Origin: Glandiceps talaboti
Lineage: Eukaryota > Hemichordata > Enteropneusta > Spengelidae
DNA: 64,000 nucleotides
Direction: 5' to 3'
Assembly (NCBI RefSeq): GCF_964340395.1
Contig: NC_135561.1
Location: 13,049,961 to 13,113,960, forward strand
Notes under the pieces: generated by a model
Told to the model about the DNA's origin: nothing
Seen by the model: only the letters and a program-made list of their open reading frames with translations
Databases searched by the model: none
Shown: one piece after another, positions 10,101 through 63,231 of the stretch
How positions within the stretch are numbered: the first letter of the stretch is position 1
Layout: every line of letters begins with the position of its first letter
Program-made: the position numbers and the translations under genes

Positions 10101-13100
10101 GTTTCCATAAGATCTAACTAGCTCTCGTCCTGTTAACAGAGAATCATCAGGTCAATAACTGCACTACATATTCTCAAATTGCTGAGCAGTTCCAAATGTA
10201 CACTCTATTCTATTCAGTATGTACTAGCACTCACCTTGGGTATATTGAAAATAAAAAGATAGTTGATTTCCTTGAAAACAATATGATGAACCCCTTAAGT
10301 TTTTTATTATTTCAAAAGGACCATGACCAAGATTTCCTATGGCCTAGTTTTAAGAGATTTAAGAAGACTGAACTGTGATTTTCAGGAAAAATTGTCCTTG
10401 AGGTGCATTCTAACTTAATATTCATAATGCATCATAATCAACCATCGCATACTTACCCACCAAGTGAAATACCAACACCAACTACAGGTGATTTGGGGTA
10501 CTGTCTTTTTATGTGGTTGACAACAAAATGTAGATCCTCTGTATTTGCAGCACAATATGTCCTAGGAGTCTGAAAGTAAAATAGAAATATCCACATAACA
10601 TCCTATCACAAATTAAATCCTCAAAAATATTTCATATAACTCTATAATAAACTAAATGGACATCCATTTTTACCATACTGCCAGAATTGATCAGGCAATT
10701 TGACTTCCACAGAGTGCTGAAAATGATTACTTGCACAAAATTCCATATTTATCATTCAATGTGTCAATGTAGTCAGAGTAAAATTATGCAAATATTGGAG
10801 ATAAAATTTATTTTTAAAAATCTATTCTGACGGAAACTGGGAATGTTTTCTGAAGCTTTGCGAAAGACAGTTATAATTGCAATTAATAAAAAGTTGGCAA
10901 ATACTATAATACAATGAACACAGAACTGACATTTGCCTGTTTGCATGTTATATTGAGTAAAAATCCCTATTTTTATTGGTTTATCGTAAAAGTAATGAAA
11001 TATAATTTTTTACGTTACGAGTTCTAAAAACTACAAACCTCAGAGCAAGAACATGCAGTGTTGTATAAAGATACTGGAAAGAAGCTAATTTGGTTTTTTC
11101 ACACACCCACCTTGAGTTGAGATCCACCGTTACCTCTATTGTTGAACACCACTGATCTATAGCCAAGTTTACTAACATCATCTGCTATGTGTGCTATGTA
11201 ATAGTCACTAGAACTACCTACAATACAACCATATACAAAGATAGTCACTAGAACTACCTACAATACAACCATATACAAAGATAGTCACTAGAACTACCTA
11301 CAATACAACCATATACAAAGATAGTCACTAGAACTACCAACAATACAACCATATACAAAGATAGTCACTAGAACTACCAACAATGTAACCATATACAAAG
11401 ATAGTCACTAGAACTACCAACAATACAACCATATACAAAGATAGTCACTAGAACTACCTACAATACAACCATATACAAAGATAGTCACTAGAACTACCAA
11501 CAATACAACCATATACAAAGATAGTCACTAGAACTACCAACAATACAACCATATACAAAGATAGTCACTAGAACTACCTACAATACAACCATATACAAAG
11601 ATAGTCACTAGAATTACCTACAATACAACCATATACAAAGATAGTCACTAGAACTACCAACAATACAACCATATACAAAGATAGTCACTAGAACTACCTA
11701 CAATACAACCATATACAAAGATAGTCACTAGAATTACCTACAATACAACCATATACAAAGATAGTCACTAGAATTACCTACAATACAACCATATACAAAG
11801 ATAGTCACTAGAACTAGTAGTACAACGTTTTTATCCTGATCATAGAGGAGGCGATCAGGATAAAAACGTAAACATGTACCACGAAAGTCAATTCAGGCAA
11901 AATAACGAAGGTAAAATAGCAATGAACAATTAGCCGACATATACATCGGATTTTAATCAGATTGGAATTGTTCTATCTTTAATTAAAAAAATGGTGAATC
12001 AAATCTTACCAGTTAAGCCAGGTAAAATAAGTACTGTTGGTCTTGTCTTGGAATCCCTATGGAGTTGACTATTTTCGTTGTCTAACCAATCTAGACAAAT
12101 TTCACCTCCATCCCATGTATCCAGTTTTTCACTGTGAATGTTAATTAATACATTGTTATTAATATAAATACTAAGACATGCAAATAAAAAATAACACAAA
12201 AACACAAATCTCTCATTAAAATTTTAAAAGCAATTAAAAGATAACACATTTTTTTAAAGTGGTCATATGGATGAGGTTTGGGTATTTATTTTGTCTTTTT
12301 GCAATGTATTAAGTTATAAACACAGACTTAGACAATGTTGTTTCACATTAATTTTCAAGTAGGAAGCCATGATAAAAAATTTTTATAAATTCAAAATCCA
12401 AAATAAATACCCATTCCTCATCCATATGGCCACTTTAAACAATTAATAAAATATTTTTTTTTAAAAGCAAAAGCATTAATAAAGCAAAAGCATTTAATAA
12501 AAGATTTTTTTTTTAAAAAGCAAAAGCATTTAATCAGTATACTGCTTACATGCTTTTGCTTTTAAAAAAAAATCTTTTAATAATTGTTTAAAAAAATGTG
12601 TTATCTTTTAATTGCTTTTAAAATTTTAATGACAGATTTGTGTTTTTGTGTTATTTTTTATTTGCATGTCTTAGTATTATTAACAATACACCAGCCTGGT
12701 TCAACAAAAAATATGGAATATATACTCTGGTCATTCTACATCACGACATGACAACACATGTCTATGTCTATGTAATTAGTTCGGTGTAAAGTATCTATGG
12801 TCAATCCCTTTTTAAAATCCTATTCCAGAGAAATTGAGTCTTTCAAAAATGTAAGTTGAATCTATACAATAGAGTCTGCAAATTGTGTTTGTCTACTTAA
12901 AATATAATTGTCTTCAATTACATTTACTTCTTTTACACCTCATCATTAGAAAATTGTTGTGACCAACGAGTTTCTCGTTTTTGGATCTAAGCAATTTCTC
13001 AACAACAAAACTTTTTTTTAAAAATACAAAATAAAACTGAAACCTACCTCACTTATTTTCTGAAGTCATGTTATCAGAAACAAACATTTTTTGGGGTTTT

Positions 13101-15792: not shown

Positions 15793-16412
15793 ATGGCGTC
15801 TGGAGCTCTGTTCGGTTCTGCTGCCAGTGGCAGCCGATCTGGAAGCAAAAATTTGGTCGAATTTCGTGCCGGCAAGATGCATCTGAAAGGCACAACTGTT
15901 ACTCCGGATAAGCGGAAGGGACTTGTGTATGTTCGTCAAACTGAAGATTCCCTGGTTCATTTCTGTTGGAAAGACAGAACTACGGGCTCAGTCGAAGAGG
16001 TGAGTGAACGGACATGCATGTGACTCAGAACGTATTTCAATATATGCAATGTCACGGTTTTCCATAACACACCTAGTGAATGTATTGTAGTACTATAGTA
16101 TTTCAAACTTGTTTCTTCTACTGTGTACTGTTCACACTCAGGTAGTCCTAACTCACGAACCATGTAGACTGGAAGCAATTTGTAACTGGTGATTATATTT
16201 ATAATATTGTATTTGTTAGTGCATGGATGTATTAGTGAGACATCCATGGTGCCCGGGGGTTAGTATTACGTTACTAGTGATAATCCAAAATCGTCTCGTA
16301 ACATACTTTTAAGTGATAACGGGTCTGTCATTTATTGCATTGGATTTCCATTCACGGCTTTTACATGTGATTTTTGTAATAGGATGTGTGTGTGTGTCTG
16401 TGTCTGTGTCTG

Positions 16413-16453
<41 letters not shown>

Positions 16454-19400
16454 CAGTCCATCTGTCTGTCTCTGTGTCTGCCTGTCTTTGTCTGTGTCTG
16501 TATTCTCCGTGTCATGTCTAATATACATACTCCTACATGCAGTACACACGTTATATTGTACATTGTAAGTTGAAGTATTAACAATAATTCAATACAGCTT
16601 GTATTAAAGCATCCATCCATCCATATCTATCCATCTATCCATATCTATCCATCCATCCATCCATACGTATGTACATGTACGTACATCCGTATGGATGTAC
16701 ATATGGATGGATGGATGGATATATGTATGTACGTACGTACATACGTACGTACGTACGTACATACATACATACATACATACATACATACATACATACATAC
16801 ATACATACATACATACATACATACATACATACATACATAATCAATGACTCATCACATCACTGAGCAGACACACTTCCTTGTCTGTGAATACATGTATAAC
16901 CATTCCAAGGAATATACCAATGAGCAATATGCTGAATGAAAATAGCAAAAATGATGGTTTGTAGTAATAGTGTGATCATAAGTGATTACTGTCTAAAGGC
17001 TAAAGCCCAGTTTGAAAGAGAATTATTGCAGAGACACTTTTCTGATACATTTTGATTTGTTTATCTGTGCATTACAATCATCTTTATATCAATGTTGATT
17101 TCAGTGTCCTCCCCCCCCTCCCAACAAAAAAAAAATAATTCCCCCAATATTTGTCTTCATACAGCCAAGGAAAATAGGAGTGACCTAAGGGGCCCTGTCA
17201 CTACAAGTCACTAGTGGACTCCAGGAGTTATAAGAAAGCCTTAGGTCAAAGTTTCTTTCTGGTGAAATGAAGAAAAATATTGGGAATAAATGAATGATCA
17301 TACAAATGTAAAATCTGCATAAGAAAGACTAACTTTACACTGTATGTAGCTTACAAGTATTTGTTAGTAAATAAGAATTATAGAAATAAATCTCACTGAG
17401 CACACTCACTAAAAATAACATGGAAATACATTTTTTGTAATTTTATATATTTTATTCCACTTTCTGTAGGATTTGATTTTATTCCCTGATGATTGTGAAT
17501 TCAAGCGTGTACCACAATGTACTACTGGTCGTGTGTACATCCTCAAATTCAAATCTTCAAGTCGCAAATTTTTCTTCTGGATGCAGGTAAGTACTTCTAT
17601 GTACATCTATAAGCAAACGTATCCAGCCATAGCTAGAGCTGAACATGTTTTCAAATTCAAGAAAGAATTTTTTGGAAGTCAAGATAAAGGCTAGCATCAT
17701 ATTCCACTTCATTATTGACTACAATATCAAGAATGTGTCTTTTTAGGTATCTCATTGTTCCTTTCCAAATATTTTTTATATAGTCACTTTATTGTAGTCA
17801 AAGGTCATAGGCCCAAAATACAGTGAATTACAAACTTACATTTTATATAACCAAAAAATATATGTTACAGTTCCATAAAGTATTTGCTTCTGACCTTATT
17901 TTTAAGGAGTGATAAATAAAGGTTGCTAGTCTCTGTAATTCACTTGATTGATCGGATGATAACAGTTGAGTAAACTTTTCAAAAGATGGCGGCTGATAGA
18001 AGAATTGCGGGATGTATTTTGACCTAAGGTTTGCAAAAAAATCATATTTCAATAGGAAATCATTAATGGTGTTCGTCCTTGATTTCATCATTTGAATAAC
18101 AAAGTACACAAATATGTTCAGCTCTATCAATACCTTGTCTTCTTCCTGCCTCAATCCCAATCTTCTCAATCTATACAATCTGGCATAAGGACTACGTTGC
18201 ATACTGGTATTTTAATGTAACCTGAGTACCATGTACATATTTCAATGACTATGCCACAATGATTTGTTTTCATTTACTATTTTCAGGAACCCAAGACTGA
18301 CAAGGATGATGAGTATTGCAAGAAAGTCAATGATTACCTGAATAATCCACCACCACCAGGATCTTCTGGTGGTAGTCGTACTGGTGGTCTTCCACCAGAG
18401 TTAGCTGCTTTAGGTGGAGGTAAGAGTATCTTGTCAATAAATTCAAAGTACTATCAAGTACTCAGTGTTTTTGTTATGGTTGGGGAACCTCTGTAGGGGT
18501 AATGGGAAAGGGGGTAAAAGTGGAATAGTTTGCCATACAATCTACCATGATATTGTGTGGGAACTCTGATGACTGGAGAATCCCCAGTAGGTTTTACCTA
18601 CCAAGAATACTTACCACTATGTTACAAACCAGACTACCTAGGGAAAATCTGTATTGATTTGTTCAGTAGGGTCAAACTGAGAATCACCCTTCTTTAATAC
18701 TAGACTCAAAGATGAGTCATTGTTGGCACTTTTTGCACCCATTCCACAAAGGTTAGGGGAATGAATGATAATGACACCCTGACAACATATTTTACAGTCT
18801 TCCTTATTACATACATGTACAGATGTGGTTGAATTTTAATGAAACTCAGCCAGTGCCTGGTGGCTCAGACCCAGACTTCAGTGTAAGAGGCACACAAGCT
18901 AACTGTTCAGCCACTGACAAAACCCACTAGATGCTATGTTAATGATATCTGATAGTCTTAACATTCATGAAATCTTTGCTATATTTGTTCACAAGGTGAG
19001 AGTGGTCTAGGTGCCCTAGGGAACATGGATCAACAACAACTAATGCAGTTACTTGGAGGAGGCGGTCTTAGTGCTCTAGGTGTGTATTTACTGACACATA
19101 GGTGGTCTTAGTTCTCAAAGTATGTATTATCTGACACTTAGGGGGTCTTTTTTCTCAAAGTATGTATTATCTGACCCATACATGTAGGTGGTCTTAGTGC
19201 TCAAAGTATGTATTATCAGACACTTAGATGGTCTCATTGTCCAATATTTTAATCTTGGAGAAAATGCAAATGTGCAAAGTGTAGAAATGACATTATGAAT
19301 TATAGAAAGTAAATGACTTCCATTAATTTTGATGCCTATACCCTCTCAGGTTATGGTAAGAGTACACAAGAACATTAATCTTTTTGATTTTTTGAAAATG

Positions 19401-22241
19401 AAAAAAAAAATCTAGTTTGGCCACTAGGAGTGCTATTCATTTATCACTGTTTGATATTTCCCTTGTAGGTGGTATGGGAGGCTTAGGTGGACTTGGATCA
19501 TTGGTTGGTGGAGACAGACCAAGTAGTGCACAGTCTACTACATCATCTGTGTAAGTTAATCATTCAATATACTTTACTCCATAGTTTTCTAAGAACCCTG
19601 TTGTCTTACAATTATTGCCAATATGGTATTAATTGTATTACTAGCATATCAACATAACCAATGAAGAGATTGTGTGTCTGTGTGTCTGTGTGTGTGTGTG
19701 TGTCTGTCTGTATGTGTGTGTGTGTGTCTGTTTGTCTGTCTCCTTATGTATATCACGTGTGTGTGTGTGTGTGTGTGTGTTTGTGTGAATTTCTTTGTTT
19801 GTGACACTGTAGTACTCGTGCAAATACCCTAAGTATTTCTAACTGACATTGATGCACCTTGGGTTCACCGTTCTGTATATAATTGTGTATATAGACCATC
19901 CCGTGTACAATCATCACCAGCCCAAAGACCAACCAGTGATAGCAGTAGTGCTGGTGGTGGTACTGGTGGTACTACTGGTGGTACAACTACTAGCACTGGT
20001 ACAGAGAGTACCACACCATCTCAGCAACGTCCAGCAACTGCTTCAGCTGCTCTGCCATCTCAGTCGTCGTCCCAAGCGTCACGTCAGCAGATACAACTCA
20101 GTGATCTACAAAACATCCTAGGCAGTATGAACAGTAAGTAGACAGTCGTAGACACAAACCACTGAACACTTTGACTAACTCTACATAACACAAAACAATA
20201 TATCCTTGACAACCACACCTGAAAGAAACCCCATAAATAGTAGTGTAATATCTACCAAGTACAATGTACATGCATTACAGCTGTGTGGTATTCTGCTCAT
20301 AGCGTCAAAGAAAGATGTGTATGACATTACATTTATGTCTGTAAGCAAAGGATTGACCAATATTAAGCCTTAGTACTTCTCAGCAGTTTAAAAATATATT
20401 ACTTTCTAGGCATATACATTTACATGGACATTTATTGATGTATCATAACCTTGCGTGTGGTAATTATACACACTGTCAGAGAGTTTCATAAAAAGTGGTA
20501 TACTTTATGACAAATTTGACAAAATCTGTTTATTTGTTTTTCTTTCAGTTCCACCACCACCAGAAGGACAAGGGGACGGTACCCAAAGTGCACGTAAGTC
20601 AAAACTCAATAGTATATATTCACTACATACCAGTACTTTTTAGAATGTAGTTACAGAGATAAAGTCCGGTACATATAAGTATACATGCAGTTTAGAGGGA
20701 GAACTTTGTTAAATGTGCTGAGAGCTGAAATGCATTCTACCTGCTGACCACTTTTATGAACACTGTACATAACTTTACATCTGTCTCATTATCATATTTG
20801 ATTGACAGTTATTGATTTCTAATTATCCTGTTTGATTGACAGCTACTGATTTCTCATCATATTTGATTGACAGCTACTGATTTCCCATTATCTTATTTGA
20901 TTGACAGCTAATGATTTCCCATTATCTTATTTGATTTACAGCTACTGACTTCTCATATTATTTGATTGGCAGCTATTGACTTGTTATTTTTCTATTTGAT
21001 TGACAGCTATTGACTTGTCCCAAGCCCTGTCTCCTGAAGTGATGGCCCCTATCTTGTCTAACAGTGAGGTTCAACAACGGTTGATGGAACACCTACCAGA
21101 GGGGGAGTCTTTGCCTCGTGATCCTCAACAACTCAGTGCCACTATACAATCACCTCAGTTTCAACAGGTAAGGCTGCTGTGTATAGCCTTGGTGCATAGA
21201 TTTAACCTATGGATACTGTGAAACTATTAGTCAATCAGTCACACAAACTGCTCTAGTATCAGTCCAATGTTAATTCATTTTCATCAAGGATACCATAATA
21301 TATGCATTCTATGTTAAATCATGAGCCATATTTATTTAAATATTTATAATATTCCAGAAATTTGTTTGATGCATGTTGTATATACTATATCCTTCCTTTT
21401 ACTTCACTTTCTGTCATTTAAATATACATGTTTTCAAAATCAAAACACATTTTCCCTCGTCAAATTCGTGCATCTCTCCTCAAATATATAATAATTCAAA
21501 TTTGACTCCTTAACCAGCTTGTTTTGTTGAATCCCTTAAAATGAAGTACTTTACAGTATTAGTACTTAGATTAGTAAACTATGCATGCATAGGGCAAGCA
21601 TTTTGATAGTAATGGCTGTTTGATTGATTCAAAAGCAATCGAGTTTTCGTCTCTGATGTTATGGTTTTTTTTATCTCCTAGGCAATGAGTATGTTTGGTG
21701 CAGCTTTGCAGTCTGGACAACTTGGACCATTGATGAATCAGTTTGGGTTAAGTCAGGAGGCAGTAGATGCTGCTAGTAAAGGAGGTATGTATTCTGTGAT
21801 CCCTCTTAGATGTTCACTGACAATGGGCTAGCAGTAGGCTAGCTCAGTGCAAGCATTATTTTGATCACCTCGCCAGCTTATGTTAGCAATTGGAAGAAGG
21901 GTTATGCATGAATGCTGTAAAGAATTTAATTGAAACAGAATAAGTGCACCAAGACTTGCACATCATTTTGTACATACATCATCATCATAGATATTTTACA
22001 TTAAATGTCAATAATAAATATAGTATCCCATAATATCATTATTGACCACTATAGTGCATAAGGCACTGATAAAACAGTCATATTTACTCAACCATGGTGT
22101 GTTTGTTTCTCTCTCTCTACAGACCTGGAAGCCTTTGTACGTGGAATGCAAGGTGGCGATAAAAAAGACGACAAAGATAAGAAACCAAAGGATGGAGATA
22201 AAAATGAGAAAGATGATGATGAGGGAATGAGTGTAGATTAG
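15793..22241 (+). CDS. ADRM1: ADRM1/Rpn13, proteasomal ubiquitin receptor, 10 coding exons, 429 aa
   Basis: Exons: 15793-15999, 17470-17586, 18287-18419, 18996-19079, 19469-19550, 19895-20133, 20549-20593, 21007-21167, 21682-21784, 22123-22241; GT-AG throughout, 1290 nt, stop TAG at 22239-22241. Residues about 19-130 are the Pru (PH-like) domain ([20 protein letters not shown] ... VHFCWKDR ... [11 protein letters not shown]), which in the family binds ubiquitin and the Rpn2 tail on the 19S regulatory particle. A Gly/Ser/Thr/Gln-rich linker follows (about 130-300). Residues about 303-395 are the DEUBAD domain ([18 protein letters not shown] ... LPEGESLP ... SPQFQQ), which recruits and activates UCHL5/Uch37. 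The charged tail ends DDDEGMSVD. Human ADRM1 is 407 aa. Introns 4 and 7 contain tandem copies of the adjacent splice junctions. Confidence 0.97.
16386..16512. repeat. (TG)n/(TCTG)n microsatellite in ADRM1 intron 1
   Basis: TG repeats grade into a TCTG/CTGT tetranucleotide tract. Confidence 0.95.
16609..16839. repeat. (ATCC)n / (GTAC) / (ATAC)n compound microsatellite in ADRM1 intron 1
   Basis: A CCAT tract, a region of alternating GTAC/ATGG words and a long, almost pure CATA tract (16752-16838) follow one another. Confidence 0.95.
17100..17300. repeat. Dispersed repeat copy in ADRM1 intron 1
   Basis: Contains GTGACCTAAGGGGCC, an inverted CCTTAGGTCA block and the words CCAATATTTGTCTTCAT and GAAGAAAAATATTGGG at its two ends, so it is roughly palindromic. 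Related copies: about 50530-50830, 53170-53530 and 56780-57030. Confidence 0.6.
19061..19242 (+). repeat. 40-bp minisatellite made of the ADRM1 exon 4 donor junction
   Basis: Unit 0 (19061-19100) is the end of exon 4 (to 19079) and its donor GTGTGT. Units at 19101-19140, 19141-19186 (46 bp) and 19187-19226, plus a partial unit at 19227-19242, repeat GGTGGTCTTAGTGCTC followed by AAAGTATGTATTATC. Each full copy carries a GTATGT donor-like hexamer at or next to the position of the real donor. Confidence 0.93.
19676..19780. repeat. (TG)n microsatellite in ADRM1 intron 5
   Basis: Interrupted TG/TCTG run. Confidence 0.9.
20795..21018 (+). repeat. 31-34-bp minisatellite made of the ADRM1 exon 8 acceptor junction, 7 copies
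   Basis: Acceptor-like AGs end at 20808, 20842, 20873, 20907, 20941, 20972 and 21006, spaced 34, 31, 34, 34, 31 and 34 nt. Each is embedded in ATTTGATTGACAG followed by CTA(C/T)TGA(C/T)TT. The last is the true acceptor of exon 8; the other six are intronic copies that include about the first 12 coding bases. Confidence 0.96.
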
Positions 22242-27544: not shown

Positions 27545-28035
27545 TGTGGCATATTATGGTTATGAAAAAGACAAAAGATTTTATTGTTTGGACACTAGGG
27601 GTGCCATTCGGACATATGAAGTGAGGGGCCAAACTTGCCATAGTCTGGTTATGGAACAAGCAAAAGATTTTATAGTTTAGCCACCAGGGGTCATTCAGGC
27701 ACAAAGAAGTGAGGGCACAAACTTGTATTCTGATATGGAAAAGACAAAAGAATTTATAGTTTGGCCACTAGGGCTGAATATCCGACAAGTAAGTGAAGGT
27801 CACAGACTTTCCATAAGCTGGTTAATAGATAAGACAAAAGATTTTATAGTTGACTACTGCGAGTGCCATTCGAACAGGAGGACCGCAAACTTCCATAGTT
27901 TTGTTATGAAAAACAAAAGGTTTCAAGGTTTGGCCACTACGAGTGCCATTTGGACACACAAGTAAGGGTATCAAACTTGCCAAAAGTCCGGTTTGAAAAA
28001 AACAAAAGATTTTATAATTTGGCCACTAGAAGCGA
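27545..28035. repeat. Diverged tandem repeat, six copies of about 80-90 bp
   Basis: ACAAAAGATTTTATAGTTTG followed by GCCACTAGGG recurs near 27571, 27661, 27744, 27833, 27913 and 28001, with linked GTGCCATTCGGACA and CAAACTTGCCATAGT words. Divergence between units is high, so the array is old. Confidence 0.85.
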
Positions 28036-29735: not shown

Positions 29736-33194
<3,459 letters not shown>

Positions 33195-39146: not shown

Positions 39147-42100
39147 TCAAAAATGTCTGTACAGAAACCTGACACCTTTAAAAGTGAAATATGAAATAGC
39201 TACAGCAAATAACATAAACTCTCTGGATGCCCTGGTATGGTTTTCTTTCTCTAGTACCAGTATTCTCCTGGATAGCCTAGCAACTTGGTGTCGAAGCATT
39301 GGTATATCAACAGCTACAGGTTCCTCGATGATTTCATCTTCATCAGCTCCTATGGATAAGATCTGCAAGTCATCTGTTCCTGGTACAGGCTCCATTCTGA
39401 TGAAACAAGTAACAGTAGATATATGAAGTTCCCTGAAATACATGTACTGTCTGTCTGTCTGTCTGTCTATGTCTGTCTCTGTTTGTCTGTCTGTCTGTAT
39501 CCAACTCCCCACCCCCACCGGTAACCCCATTATTATCTTTGCAATCATTTGCTGTCATGCTGATGAATATTTTTGGTCAACAGTGCAAGGGTTCTATGAT
39601 GACTAATACCAGGTTGCTATACATGAAAATAAAGAGATGTGGATGCAGTTGTACAATGAACATCAAGTCATCACCACAAAGAGAGACATGGTATTAGCAG
39701 GAAATACAACTCGATATCAACACACCTTGATGTATTTCTTTACTAAAACTTGAGTGCCTACTTACGAGATAGAAGTATCCATCCTAGGTCCATTCCTACC
39801 ACCTATGAGTGTTGATGATGATGATGATGTGTAGGACTGTGACGGGTTACCTACAGGTTCATCTTGTACAGAGGGAAATTCATGGTCTTCTAGTTTTAAT
39901 ACTCTGGGTGGTGTGGTCAAACCAACAGGTGTTTCACCTAAAAATGGCAAATAGTGGACAGGAAAAATCAGAGCAGGTACCATTATAAAACTCACATTCA
40001 GCTTCTTGCAGTTGAATAGTATACAGCAGTCTTTTGGTAAGTGTATAAAGTACATTGTTGTATGTCAAATCTACATAAGTTTCAAAGTCATTTTACCAGG
40101 GTTCTCTACCACTGTATTTATTATGGATGGAAACTATACGAGGTAAATGTTATCAAAGTTCTTCAGCCATACCTAAGTTCTCTACCTGTAATTGTGCACA
40201 GGGAGGTAAGTATATGTAGTTATATGTGAGTGTACTTGAGTTCCCAAGTCATTTTACCAAGGTTCCCTATAGATATCAGTGTTTTTTATCAAGATGGGTA
40301 AATGTATGGACGTAAAATCTACCCCAGTTTCCAAATCATTTTTTTCCAAGGTTCCCTACGTACATGTACCAGAGTATAAAGGGGTCGAATCTACCTGTGT
40401 TCCCCTACCAATGTTTTTGTTAAGAATAGTATAAGCAGTTTAAAATCTCTGAGAGTTCCCCAGGTATTTACCAAGCTTCCCACCATAATAATGGTTCAGC
40501 GAATAGAAACATATGCAAATTCAAACTCTGTTCGTTACCTGGACTTCCAAGCCTTAGTAAACACATTGACTGGTAAGCGCTAGGTATGACTGTATTAATA
40601 TACAAAGTTCATTTACCTGGTAGAAGGGGTTCCATTAAATCAAGGTTTAATGCTCTGGGAGAATCACTCATTCCAACATGAGTTCCTGAACCTGGTGTAA
40701 GGAGAAATATTACGTAAATGTAAATAAATGGAATTATTAGTTATTGTAAAGCAAATTATATTAGAATCCTCAACAGTTACTACTTTCATCTCATAGATCA
40801 TTAACAAAGTTGCAAATGTTTGATAATTTTTTACTCTCATTTTTGCCTATGTTTTCATACTACCTATGAACATATTATAATGTATCAATCAACAGCCAAT
40901 AAATTTTAACAAATTGTAGGCAAACAAGTAACGTCAGGACCACATCCCTGAAGCTTCTTGACTGTTTACACACATACAAGCCAGCGTGCAAATTACCCAC
41001 AATGCTTAGGAGACATGTACATGTAATTCACCCTATTAGAAAATAGGACTAAACTGTTACCAGTAAAAGCTTACTATATTTTGCAAAAAAGATAGCTAAC
41101 AAATTTACGCCTAAACAGCTATATGTAAGTGTACTGTAATGTGTTTGTAATTGTACAGTCATGTACATGCAGTGTTCATGGCCACACTGGCAAAAATCAA
41201 TCACGCAAATTTAGTGAGGGGATACCCCCCCCCCCCCCCCCACTCCTATCACATCTGTTCTAAAATGTTAGTTTTAAATTTACATATCAAAATAATGATC
41301 AGATCTCGCATTTCATGTACATGTACGTGTATATAGACATTTCATGGTTTACATCAAATCATAAATGATTCACTATAACAGATAGACTTTCTGGGACATA
41401 CATGTAAGACATCCTCTGAGTATGCTGAGTGTATTATTGTTGCTTATTTGACCTTTCAATAACCGCTGACCCTTGCATGTGACCATTGACCGATTGCGAT
41501 TCACTTCGTCCCATTTCAACTCGCCCCAATTTCAACTCGCCCCATTTTCAACTCGCCCCACTTTTAACTCGTCCCATTTTCAACTCGCCCCAACAACACT
41601 AGTAAACGTTTATAAATCTAAACGATACATGGACTTGAAGTACAGCGCGGGGACCGAAAAATTTACATGATTTTACCTACATGGCCAGTTGAAGCGTAGA
41701 AAATGTAACATTTCATAGCAGAAAGTGGTGTGGGTTTTGGCTTTAAGTGTTTGCTAGATCTAGAACTAAGTATTGTAGTATGTGTTTTAAGCACAAGTGG
41801 TACTTCATTAGTGGAATACGAGATACCACAGACCCTCCAAACTGAGTACTAGTAGCTTCGATTTCATATATGCACAGGTAAATTATATTGTAAAGAGTTG
41901 GGGCGAGTTGAAAATGGGGCGAGTTGAAATTGGGGCGAGTTGAATATTGGACGAGTTGAGTGGGACAAGTTCAAATAGGACGAGTTGAAATTGGGACGAG
42001 TTGATCCGTCACGCCATTGACCTACCTCCAACTAATATCTTGCCTGGTACCTGCATGCTTGCAGCAGTCATACCAGTTTGTTGGTACATGTCTGTTTCAA

Positions 42101-62165: not shown

Positions 62166-62361
62166 TGTACTTTGAATTCAACTACCGATAAATTGTACTT
62201 TGAATTCAACTACCGATAAATTGTACTTTGAATTCAACTACCGATAAATTGTACTTTGAATTCAACTACCGATAAATTGTACTTTGAATTCAACTACCAA
62301 TAAATTGTACTTTGAATTCAACTACCGATAAATTGTACTTTGAATTCAACTACCGATAAAT
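62166..62361. repeat. 28-bp satellite, seven copies
   Basis: TTTGAATTCAACTACC starts at 62171, 62199, 62227, 62255, 62283, 62311 and 62339, an exact 28-bp period. One unit differs (CCAATAA for CCGATAA). The copies are nearly identical. Confidence 0.97.
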
Positions 62362-63231
62362 TGATTCAAAACATATTTAATGCATATGAGAACAGGAGAA
62401 CAGATTTTGATTCGATTTCAAAGTGATTGAACATTTCAGGACTTCAGTAACCTGTTACATGTACATAGTTGATGGTACTTTGTACATGTACATGTTTTGG
62501 TTGTGTAAATGTGGGAAAGAGGTACTGACCATTTACAAGTACTTGTTTGTAAACAAATTGTAAAGATGTTTGATACTGATGAGATTAGGTCATTGGGATC
62601 AACAAGTACAAGTTGACAACATAATAAAGTGGACAAATGGAGCCAAAAATTGAAAAGCTATGGCAAAGTTGCTTCAGTCCACCTACATTTACATTTACAG
62701 GTTTTTAATTGTGGGTTAAGTCTGTTTGACAGTATTTTAATACCATCCACATCAAATCAGTGTCATTTGTAATAAAGTTGACAAGCTGAGCAAAAAGTAC
62801 GGAAAAGTTAATTGCTTCACTTACAGTTACATTCACAACATAAAAACATAAACAGGGGTTTTAATTTTTGCTTAATACATAACAGTAGTTTAACAGTATA
62901 ACACCATCCATTGTGAACCAGAGTCATTTTCAAGAGTATTTTTCAGCAGTACAGGTCAGTCAGCATGGAATGCATGTACATGTATCTACATTTTGTACAT
63001 TTTATTTCCTTAAAGGCCAAGAATTCAATCCTAGGTTCTCACATTACTGTCATCTATCAATGGAGCAATCAGGATCACATACAATAATTCTTTCCTTCTT
63101 TACAATAGCTCTGCTAAACAACTGTTTTTCACATCTACAATTTAATCCTCATCCAAATTAATTAGAATTAGAACACAGACCAGGCTATCATTGCAATTCA
63201 GTCATTCAATGTATGTACATGTATGTAATAA

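Follow-up and report, generated by a model that had tools for sequence, protein, structure and literature searches.

The gene described here raises the question of how one acceptor is selected when seven similar acceptors stand in a row in front of the same exon. The window (the whole 64-kb stretch of DNA that was analysed) carries a complete ADRM1/Rpn13 gene, for which a hand-made ten-exon model gives an intact reading frame with exon 8 starting at position 21007. The parts of the gene needed for the question are the following.

15793..22241, plus strand: ADRM1/Rpn13 coding region, 10 exons in a hand-made model with an uninterrupted open reading frame, CDS of 1290 nt, 429 aa
20549..20593, plus strand: exon 7, with its donor GTAAGT at 20594
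21007..21167, plus strand: exon 8, where the DEUBAD (UCHL5-binding) domain starts (PF16550)

The encoded protein is matched from residue 2 to its end by human ADRM1 (2kr0, E 4.4e-136). The N-terminal Pru domain is present (Pfam PF04683, Rpn13_ADRM1_Pru, E 6.7e-30), with solved ADRM1 Pru chains matching residues 2-142, and Pfam also finds the C-terminal DEUBAD/UCH-binding domain (PF16550, RPN13_C) on separate exons in two frames, the match in the first frame exceeding the cut-off of 39.3 (47.8 bits, E 1.8e-12) and that in the second lying below it (30.7 bits, E 3.6e-7). The match to the chains of 4wlq and 4wlr, which we take to be UCHL5 complexes, begins at residue 304, practically where exon 8 starts. 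All nine introns are GT-AG and 338-1470 nt in length, with intron 7 measuring 413 nt and intron 8 measuring 514 nt. An earlier reading of this DNA from its letters (the sequence-only reading) had called the gene ADRM1, placed the array before exon 8 and put the exon 7 donor at 20594; the two Pfam domains and the full-length match to 2kr0 bear out the name, and both the exon numbering and the donor agree with the ten-exon model.

The 3' end of intron 7 is formed by a tandem array, for which Tandem Repeats Finder (TRF) reports a period of 34 nt, 6.9 copies and 83% matches, and whose unit consists of a T-rich tract, TTTGATTGACAG and a CTATTGACTTGT-like segment. Seven TTTGATTNNCAG acceptors within it end at 20808, 20842, 20873, 20907, 20941, 20972 and 21006, exactly where the sequence-only reading had placed a sevenfold series. 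Its further statement that the spacings are 31-34 nt and all 1 modulo 3 also proved correct, as successive acceptors lie 34, 31, 34, 34, 31 and 34 nt apart.

20784..21013, plus strand: tandem array across the intron 7/exon 8 boundary, 34-nt unit (TRF; repeat family D4)
20797..20808, plus strand: acceptor copy 1 (TTTGATTGACAG), +198 nt, in frame, stop at 20820
20831..20842, plus strand: acceptor copy 2, +164 nt, stop at 20878
20862..20873, plus strand: acceptor copy 3, +133 nt, stop at 20909
20896..20907, plus strand: acceptor copy 4, +99 nt, in frame, stop at 20946
20930..20941, plus strand: acceptor copy 5 (TTTGATTTACAG), +65 nt, stop at 20977, with the top PWM score in the array (12.2)
20961..20972, plus strand: acceptor copy 6 (TTTGATTGGCAG), +34 nt, stop at 21011
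20995..21006, plus strand: authentic exon 8 acceptor (copy 7), the sole site of the seven to preserve the 429-aa frame

Across both strands of the window TTTGATTNNCAG has eight matches, seven of them inside the array, compared with a mean of 0.35 in dinucleotide-preserving shuffles of the window, none of which (0/100) reached eight. Upstream repeat copies, counted as windows with at least 19/26 identity, number six at the exon 8 acceptor and zero at each of the eight other ADRM1 acceptors. An acceptor sequence common to every copy had been proposed, and ATTTGATT is indeed present in six of the seven, with copy 2 departing from it (GTTTGATT). Similarly, the proposed copying of about 12 initial coding bases holds in full for the exon-proximal copy and in part for the other five, as the segments following acceptors 1-6 share 9, 9, 8, 8, 10 and 12 of 12 bases with the start of exon 8. 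The exon-proximal copy may be the youngest, or may have been homogenised. Twelve nucleotides of exon 8 belong to the repeat, beyond which the exon diverges from it, and the stretch at the equivalent place before copy 1 resembles the exon start weakly (4/12), so the duplicated segment straddles the boundary; in the test for tandem-duplicated alternative 3' splice sites it repeats both intronic and exonic parts. The left border of the array is less certain than the right, since that same stretch still agrees with the consensus of the copies at 7/12 bases. No two of the six inter-acceptor units are identical, and units u3 and u6, at 31 nt rather than 34, lack the same three alignment columns. There is no depletion of AG in the array, with seven in 20784-21006, which are the seven acceptors themselves, against a shuffle mean of 7.08.

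Acceptor strength was scored with a local 20-nt PWM from 15 acceptors of the window, comprising eight ADRM1 acceptors, with that of exon 8 left out, and seven from neighbouring minus-strand genes that were placed by eye; as this PWM is small, only "comparable" strength is to be trusted from its scores. Leave-one-out scores of the training acceptors ranged from -2.6 to 16.9. Copies 1-7 scored 8.1, 5.4, 5.9, 7.9, 12.2, 7.3 and 9.7, the last being the authentic site, and all seven exceed the 95th percentile of AGs in the window. With the six copies at 5.4-12.2 against 9.7, the claim that they are comparable to the real site as acceptors stands within the reach of a 15-site matrix, the authentic site ranking second of the seven, above five copies and below copy 5. 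The authentic site also has the most T in positions -23 to -4 (13, against 10-11 in the copies). The last site is poorly marked by sequence strength, and its position across the exon, that is, exon definition, is the likeliest discriminator.

Four other arrangements were considered and rejected. Ahead of the array, intron 7 has 15 AGs (20594-20790) with scores of -14.9 to 3.0, against 5.4-12.2 for the array sites; this argues against an alternative acceptor there, yet the accepted exon 6 acceptor itself scores -2.6, so that a low PWM score does not alone disqualify a site. RNA structure masking the upstream acceptors was discarded because the 311 nt of 20750-21060, folded alone, gave a z of +1.74, with 99 of 100 shuffles folding at least as well. 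Recursive (ratchet) splicing was set aside as none of the seven array AGs directly precedes a GT, and a cassette exon or new intron within the array because the U1 pairing of the four GTs in 20784-21020 is no better than -1.6 kcal/mol. The nine real ADRM1 donors pair with U1 at -5.4 to -13.5 kcal/mol, with the exon 8 donor third among them (-11.5 kcal/mol).

Use of upstream acceptors 1-6 would extend exon 8 by 198, 164, 133, 99, 65 and 34 nt. The frame arithmetic of the sequence-only reading is confirmed, with +99 and +198 keeping the length in frame and the other four shifting it, and so is its expectation of a stop, which all six isoforms meet within exon 8 of the gene model, 4-13 codons past the junction and after 306, 314, 314, 315, 314 and 315 aa, respectively. 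As the normal protein common to all isoforms ends after residue 302, these products keep the Pru domain and lose the DEUBAD domain, a loss that had likewise been predicted and that the 4wlq/4wlr match from residue 304 corroborates. If translated, they would be Pru-only, DEUBAD-less forms of Rpn13. NMD acts on a stop when the last junction follows it by more than about 50-55 nt. For copies 1-6 this distance is 448, 390, 359, 322, 291 and 257 nt, beyond that threshold in six of six, and NMD is thus expected for the upstream isoforms.

A yUnAy motif lies upstream of all seven array AGs, with its A at -18 to -31, although the motif is short and degenerate and these positions are given without a chance control. 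In copies 2-7 the motif at -25 to -31 falls inside the copied exon start. A crude U2-pairing energy came to -4.5 for copy 6 (ACTGAC), -3.4 for copy 5 (GCTAAT), -3.4 for copy 1 (from a site at -38) and -2.2 for the authentic acceptor (ATTGAC), with copies 2-4 at about -2 and the value of copy 2 taken from a site with an AG in between. Copy 5 exceeds the authentic site in both PWM score and U2 pairing, and copy 6 in U2 pairing, not PWM. Under a scanning rule given in the excerpted text of PMC1431707, AGs closer than 12-15 nt to the branch are bypassed; as the previous AG is 34 nt away, the authentic branch site should be either downstream of 20972 or at most about 12-15 nt upstream of it. We infer that it sits in the copied segment, with A20979 the best candidate (a yUnAy match with no AG before acceptor 21006), or just before AG 20972, for example at A20965.

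20973..20984, plus strand: copy of the exon start, CTATTGACTTGT, agreeing with exon 8 at 12/12 bases, with the putative branch site TTGAC (A20979, position -28)

To judge from these motifs, a copy of coding-exon sequence has probably been turned into a branch site of that same exon, which would be unusual. Each unit looks like a self-contained acceptor module, the branch-like motif of copies 2-7 being supplied by the copied exon start.

Local copies stand out at two of the 18 internal ADRM1 junctions, each compared with 200 mononucleotide shuffles: the exon 8 acceptor and the exon 4 donor. The array at the exon 4 donor is a new observation, beyond the exon 8 array.

19060..19234, plus strand: tandem array across the exon 4 donor, 40-nt unit (TRF; repeat families D5/D6)

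This array repeats the exon end and the donor, with the real donor at 19080 and copies at 19120, 19160 and 19206, each of which would lead to a stop after 190 aa. The copies read AAA/GTATGT and pair with U1 at -4.2 kcal/mol, against -8.0 kcal/mol for the real TAG/GTGTGT. Age, chance or selection may lie behind the contrast between these weakened donor copies and the acceptor copies, whose core is retained. By a rough estimate, a 230-nt array placed at random in the 6.4-kb gene with its 18 junctions touches one with a probability of 0.65, and since random placement would often touch a junction, the position of an array there is not strong evidence for function.

Other repeats of the window were recorded alongside these. 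Two minisatellites outside ADRM1 are highly uniform and apparently recent: 11201-11816 (40 bp x 15.4, 97%) and 62166-62363 (28 bp x 7.1, 98%). In two others, at 41506-41593 and 41898-42004 (16/32 bp), the units look like mutual inverted copies, and the latter lies near the donor, placed by eye, of an exon of a minus-strand gene that, from its peptide, we take to be MFF. The motif TTTGGCCACTAGGNGT occurs six times with at most two mismatches (0.06 expected), at 19416-19431 and 27587-28033; five of the six are in or at the end of an 89-bp array (27557-28029), perhaps a dispersed element that underwent tandem expansion. The eighth TTTGATTNNCAG of the window, and the sole match outside the ADRM1 array, is at 30942-30953 on the minus strand, at a likely acceptor of a gene that is presumably a short-chain dehydrogenase, judged by its peptide.

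The explanation that we favour, with somewhat better than even confidence, is that a minisatellite-like duplication produced six extra acceptor modules, with the last site dominant through exon definition and minor leakage going to NMD. A segment of about 34 nt across the intron 7/exon 8 boundary, made up of the polypyrimidine tract with its AG (about 22-25 nt) and of the 9-12 coding bases that follow, would have been duplicated in tandem and amplified like a minisatellite, leaving six additional acceptor modules upstream of the authentic one. Such a tandem duplication across an exon boundary is of a known kind and is the simplest origin for the array. From copy 2 onward, the branch site would be provided by the duplicated Ile-Asp-Leu codons (TATTGAC or a variant of it), which lie 25-31 nt ahead of the following exon start, each of these exon-derived sites being followed by a short T-rich tract and then CAG. 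Full-length mRNA would come from the last acceptor, most likely since recognition of exon 8 would proceed across the exon, starting from the strong donor of that exon, and thereby favour the nearest acceptor, while a minor share of transcripts would use upstream copies and be removed by NMD.

In the excerpts of PMC9225289, the choice between acceptors separated by 20 nt or more is settled in the first step, typically with a branch point and polypyrimidine tract for each, and exon definition begins at introns of more than about 250 nt. As the flanking introns (413 and 514 nt) exceed this length and the exon 8 donor is good, exon definition with some leakage is favoured. The same excerpts report that in human acceptor pairs the upstream one is preferred overall, and that this preference is significantly reduced under exon definition, described for 3' sites as a reduction and not as a reversal. 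Two points count against the favoured explanation: by analogy with the human bias, upstream copies could win, and with copy 5 (PWM and U2) and copy 6 (U2) ahead of the authentic site, a choice made by sequence alone would not have to fall on the last one. These rules of splice choice come from human data and may not transfer to the organism of the window, which to judge from its gene content is an animal.

It is rather unlikely, in our judgement, that the array is silent, a neutral minisatellite without effect on the mRNA whose last acceptor is used exclusively while six copies are ignored. The preference of exon definition for the acceptor nearest the exon 8 donor (PMC9225289, in excerpt), the lead of the authentic site over five of six copies in the PWM and in T content, and the intact protein all fit such an array, but an AG, a T-rich tract and a branch-like motif are in place in every copy, the score of copy 5 exceeds that of the real site, masking structure is absent from 20750-21060, and, according to the excerpted text of PMC7317903, splicing is often upset when an AG newly arises between the branch point and the acceptor, which makes complete silence less likely. 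An opposite possibility, which we hold to be improbable, is that of a selected splice switch, its strength given by copy number, that controls how much full-length Rpn13 is made or gives rise to DEUBAD-less Rpn13. All six isoforms stop at the start of the DEUBAD domain, a natural human DEUBAD-less Rpn13 (about residues 1-279) is found at proteasomes (PMC8677766, in excerpt), and the acceptor copies have kept a core in which minority letters number 2/84, against 12/84 in the exon-like part (Fisher p 0.0096), and which, at 12 of the 34 columns, accounts for 2 of 16 minimum events (binomial p 0.043); by contrast, the exon 4 donor copies are weaker than their original. These p values hint at selective conservation of the acceptor core, but they are weak and post hoc, with indels left out and tandem copies that are not independent. 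In addition, stops so far upstream of the last junction lead one to expect NMD rather than protein, and for the human form no matching splice variant was seen and proteasome activity appears to be needed.

Carried furthest, such a switch would be a copy-number-tunable ladder, in which six decoys with exon-derived branch sites divert a set fraction of ADRM1 transcripts to a stop at the DEUBAD boundary and thereby determine the proportion of UCHL5-recruiting and non-recruiting Rpn13 or, through NMD, total Rpn13, varying between individuals with repeat number; this too we consider a long shot. An artefact of assembly or haplotype, with copy number inflated or collapsed by mis-assembly, is very unlikely, for although tandem repeats are generally prone to mis-assembly, the six inter-acceptor units all differ and two are 31 nt long, unlike a simple repeated-read error. 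As for a coding array, in which exon 8 would begin at an upstream acceptor and the repeats be translated, the +99 and +198 extensions stay in frame by length, but the stop within 4-13 codons of the junction in all six extended isoforms rules out translated repeats under the standard nuclear code, and we give this reading next to no credence.

Duplicated acceptor modules with a dominant last site and minor leakage can be set beside several known systems. NAGNAG tandem acceptors are spaced 3 nt apart. They and other closely spaced acceptors resemble the ADRM1 array in having tandem acceptors at one exon, whereas the copies here lie 31-34 nt apart, outside the range of about 3-12 nt that defines closely spaced tandem acceptors, and each has its own branch-like site. 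Short tandem duplications were reportedly described by Zhuo et al. in 2007 as a source of introns and splice variants. In Drosophila cases, coding sequence with a proto-splice site was duplicated to give a new intron (Lehmann et al. 2010, PMC2891723, in excerpt); there, as here, a local duplication adds splice sites and room for alternative splicing, but in ADRM1 an existing acceptor was copied six times and no new intron arose, a usable donor being absent from every copy. When 3' splice sites compete over a distance of 20 nt or more, each as a rule has a polypyrimidine tract and a branch site to itself and the first step decides between them, as in the excerpts of PMC9225289, and ADRM1 differs from those pairs in having seven near-identical competitors in a row.

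The nearest counterpart of the predicted product is hRpn13-Pru, a natural DEUBAD-less human Rpn13 that was assigned from its mass to residues 1-279; its authors found no splice variant for it in PacBio data and point to proteasome activity (PMC8677766, in excerpt). Its DEUBAD domain is lost at nearly the same place as in the array isoforms, human residue 279 aligning with residue 291 here (by eye in the 2kr0 alignment, assuming a 4-residue tag) and the isoforms diverging after residue 302. The human form is apparently made by proteasome activity, while the ADRM1 truncated form would arise by splicing, if at all, so that hRpn13-Pru makes such a product imaginable, not likely. As in AS-NMD and poison exons, the array isoforms combine non-triplet splicing with early stops, but the exons would be extended by predicted acceptor choice and no cassette exon is involved. 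Among the matches listed on tandem or duplicated splice sites and on acceptor competition, in a literature covered in part, no description of a sevenfold acceptor array was found. The array is a real one of a known kind, a tandem duplication across a splice site, unusual in its copy number and, on the letters of this locus, in having branch sites that are probably built in; any function is putative.

Seven similar acceptors, each with a branch-like motif and a diagnostic isoform length, constitute a natural experiment on acceptor choice, addressing the classical question of whether acceptors are chosen by first-come (intron proximity), by strength or by exon definition. If the upstream copies are never used, the locus would provide a strict test of splice predictors, because the array sites are so close in sequence. 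If splicing does use them, the composition of proteasome receptors could be set directly by how the repeat number varies in a single gene.
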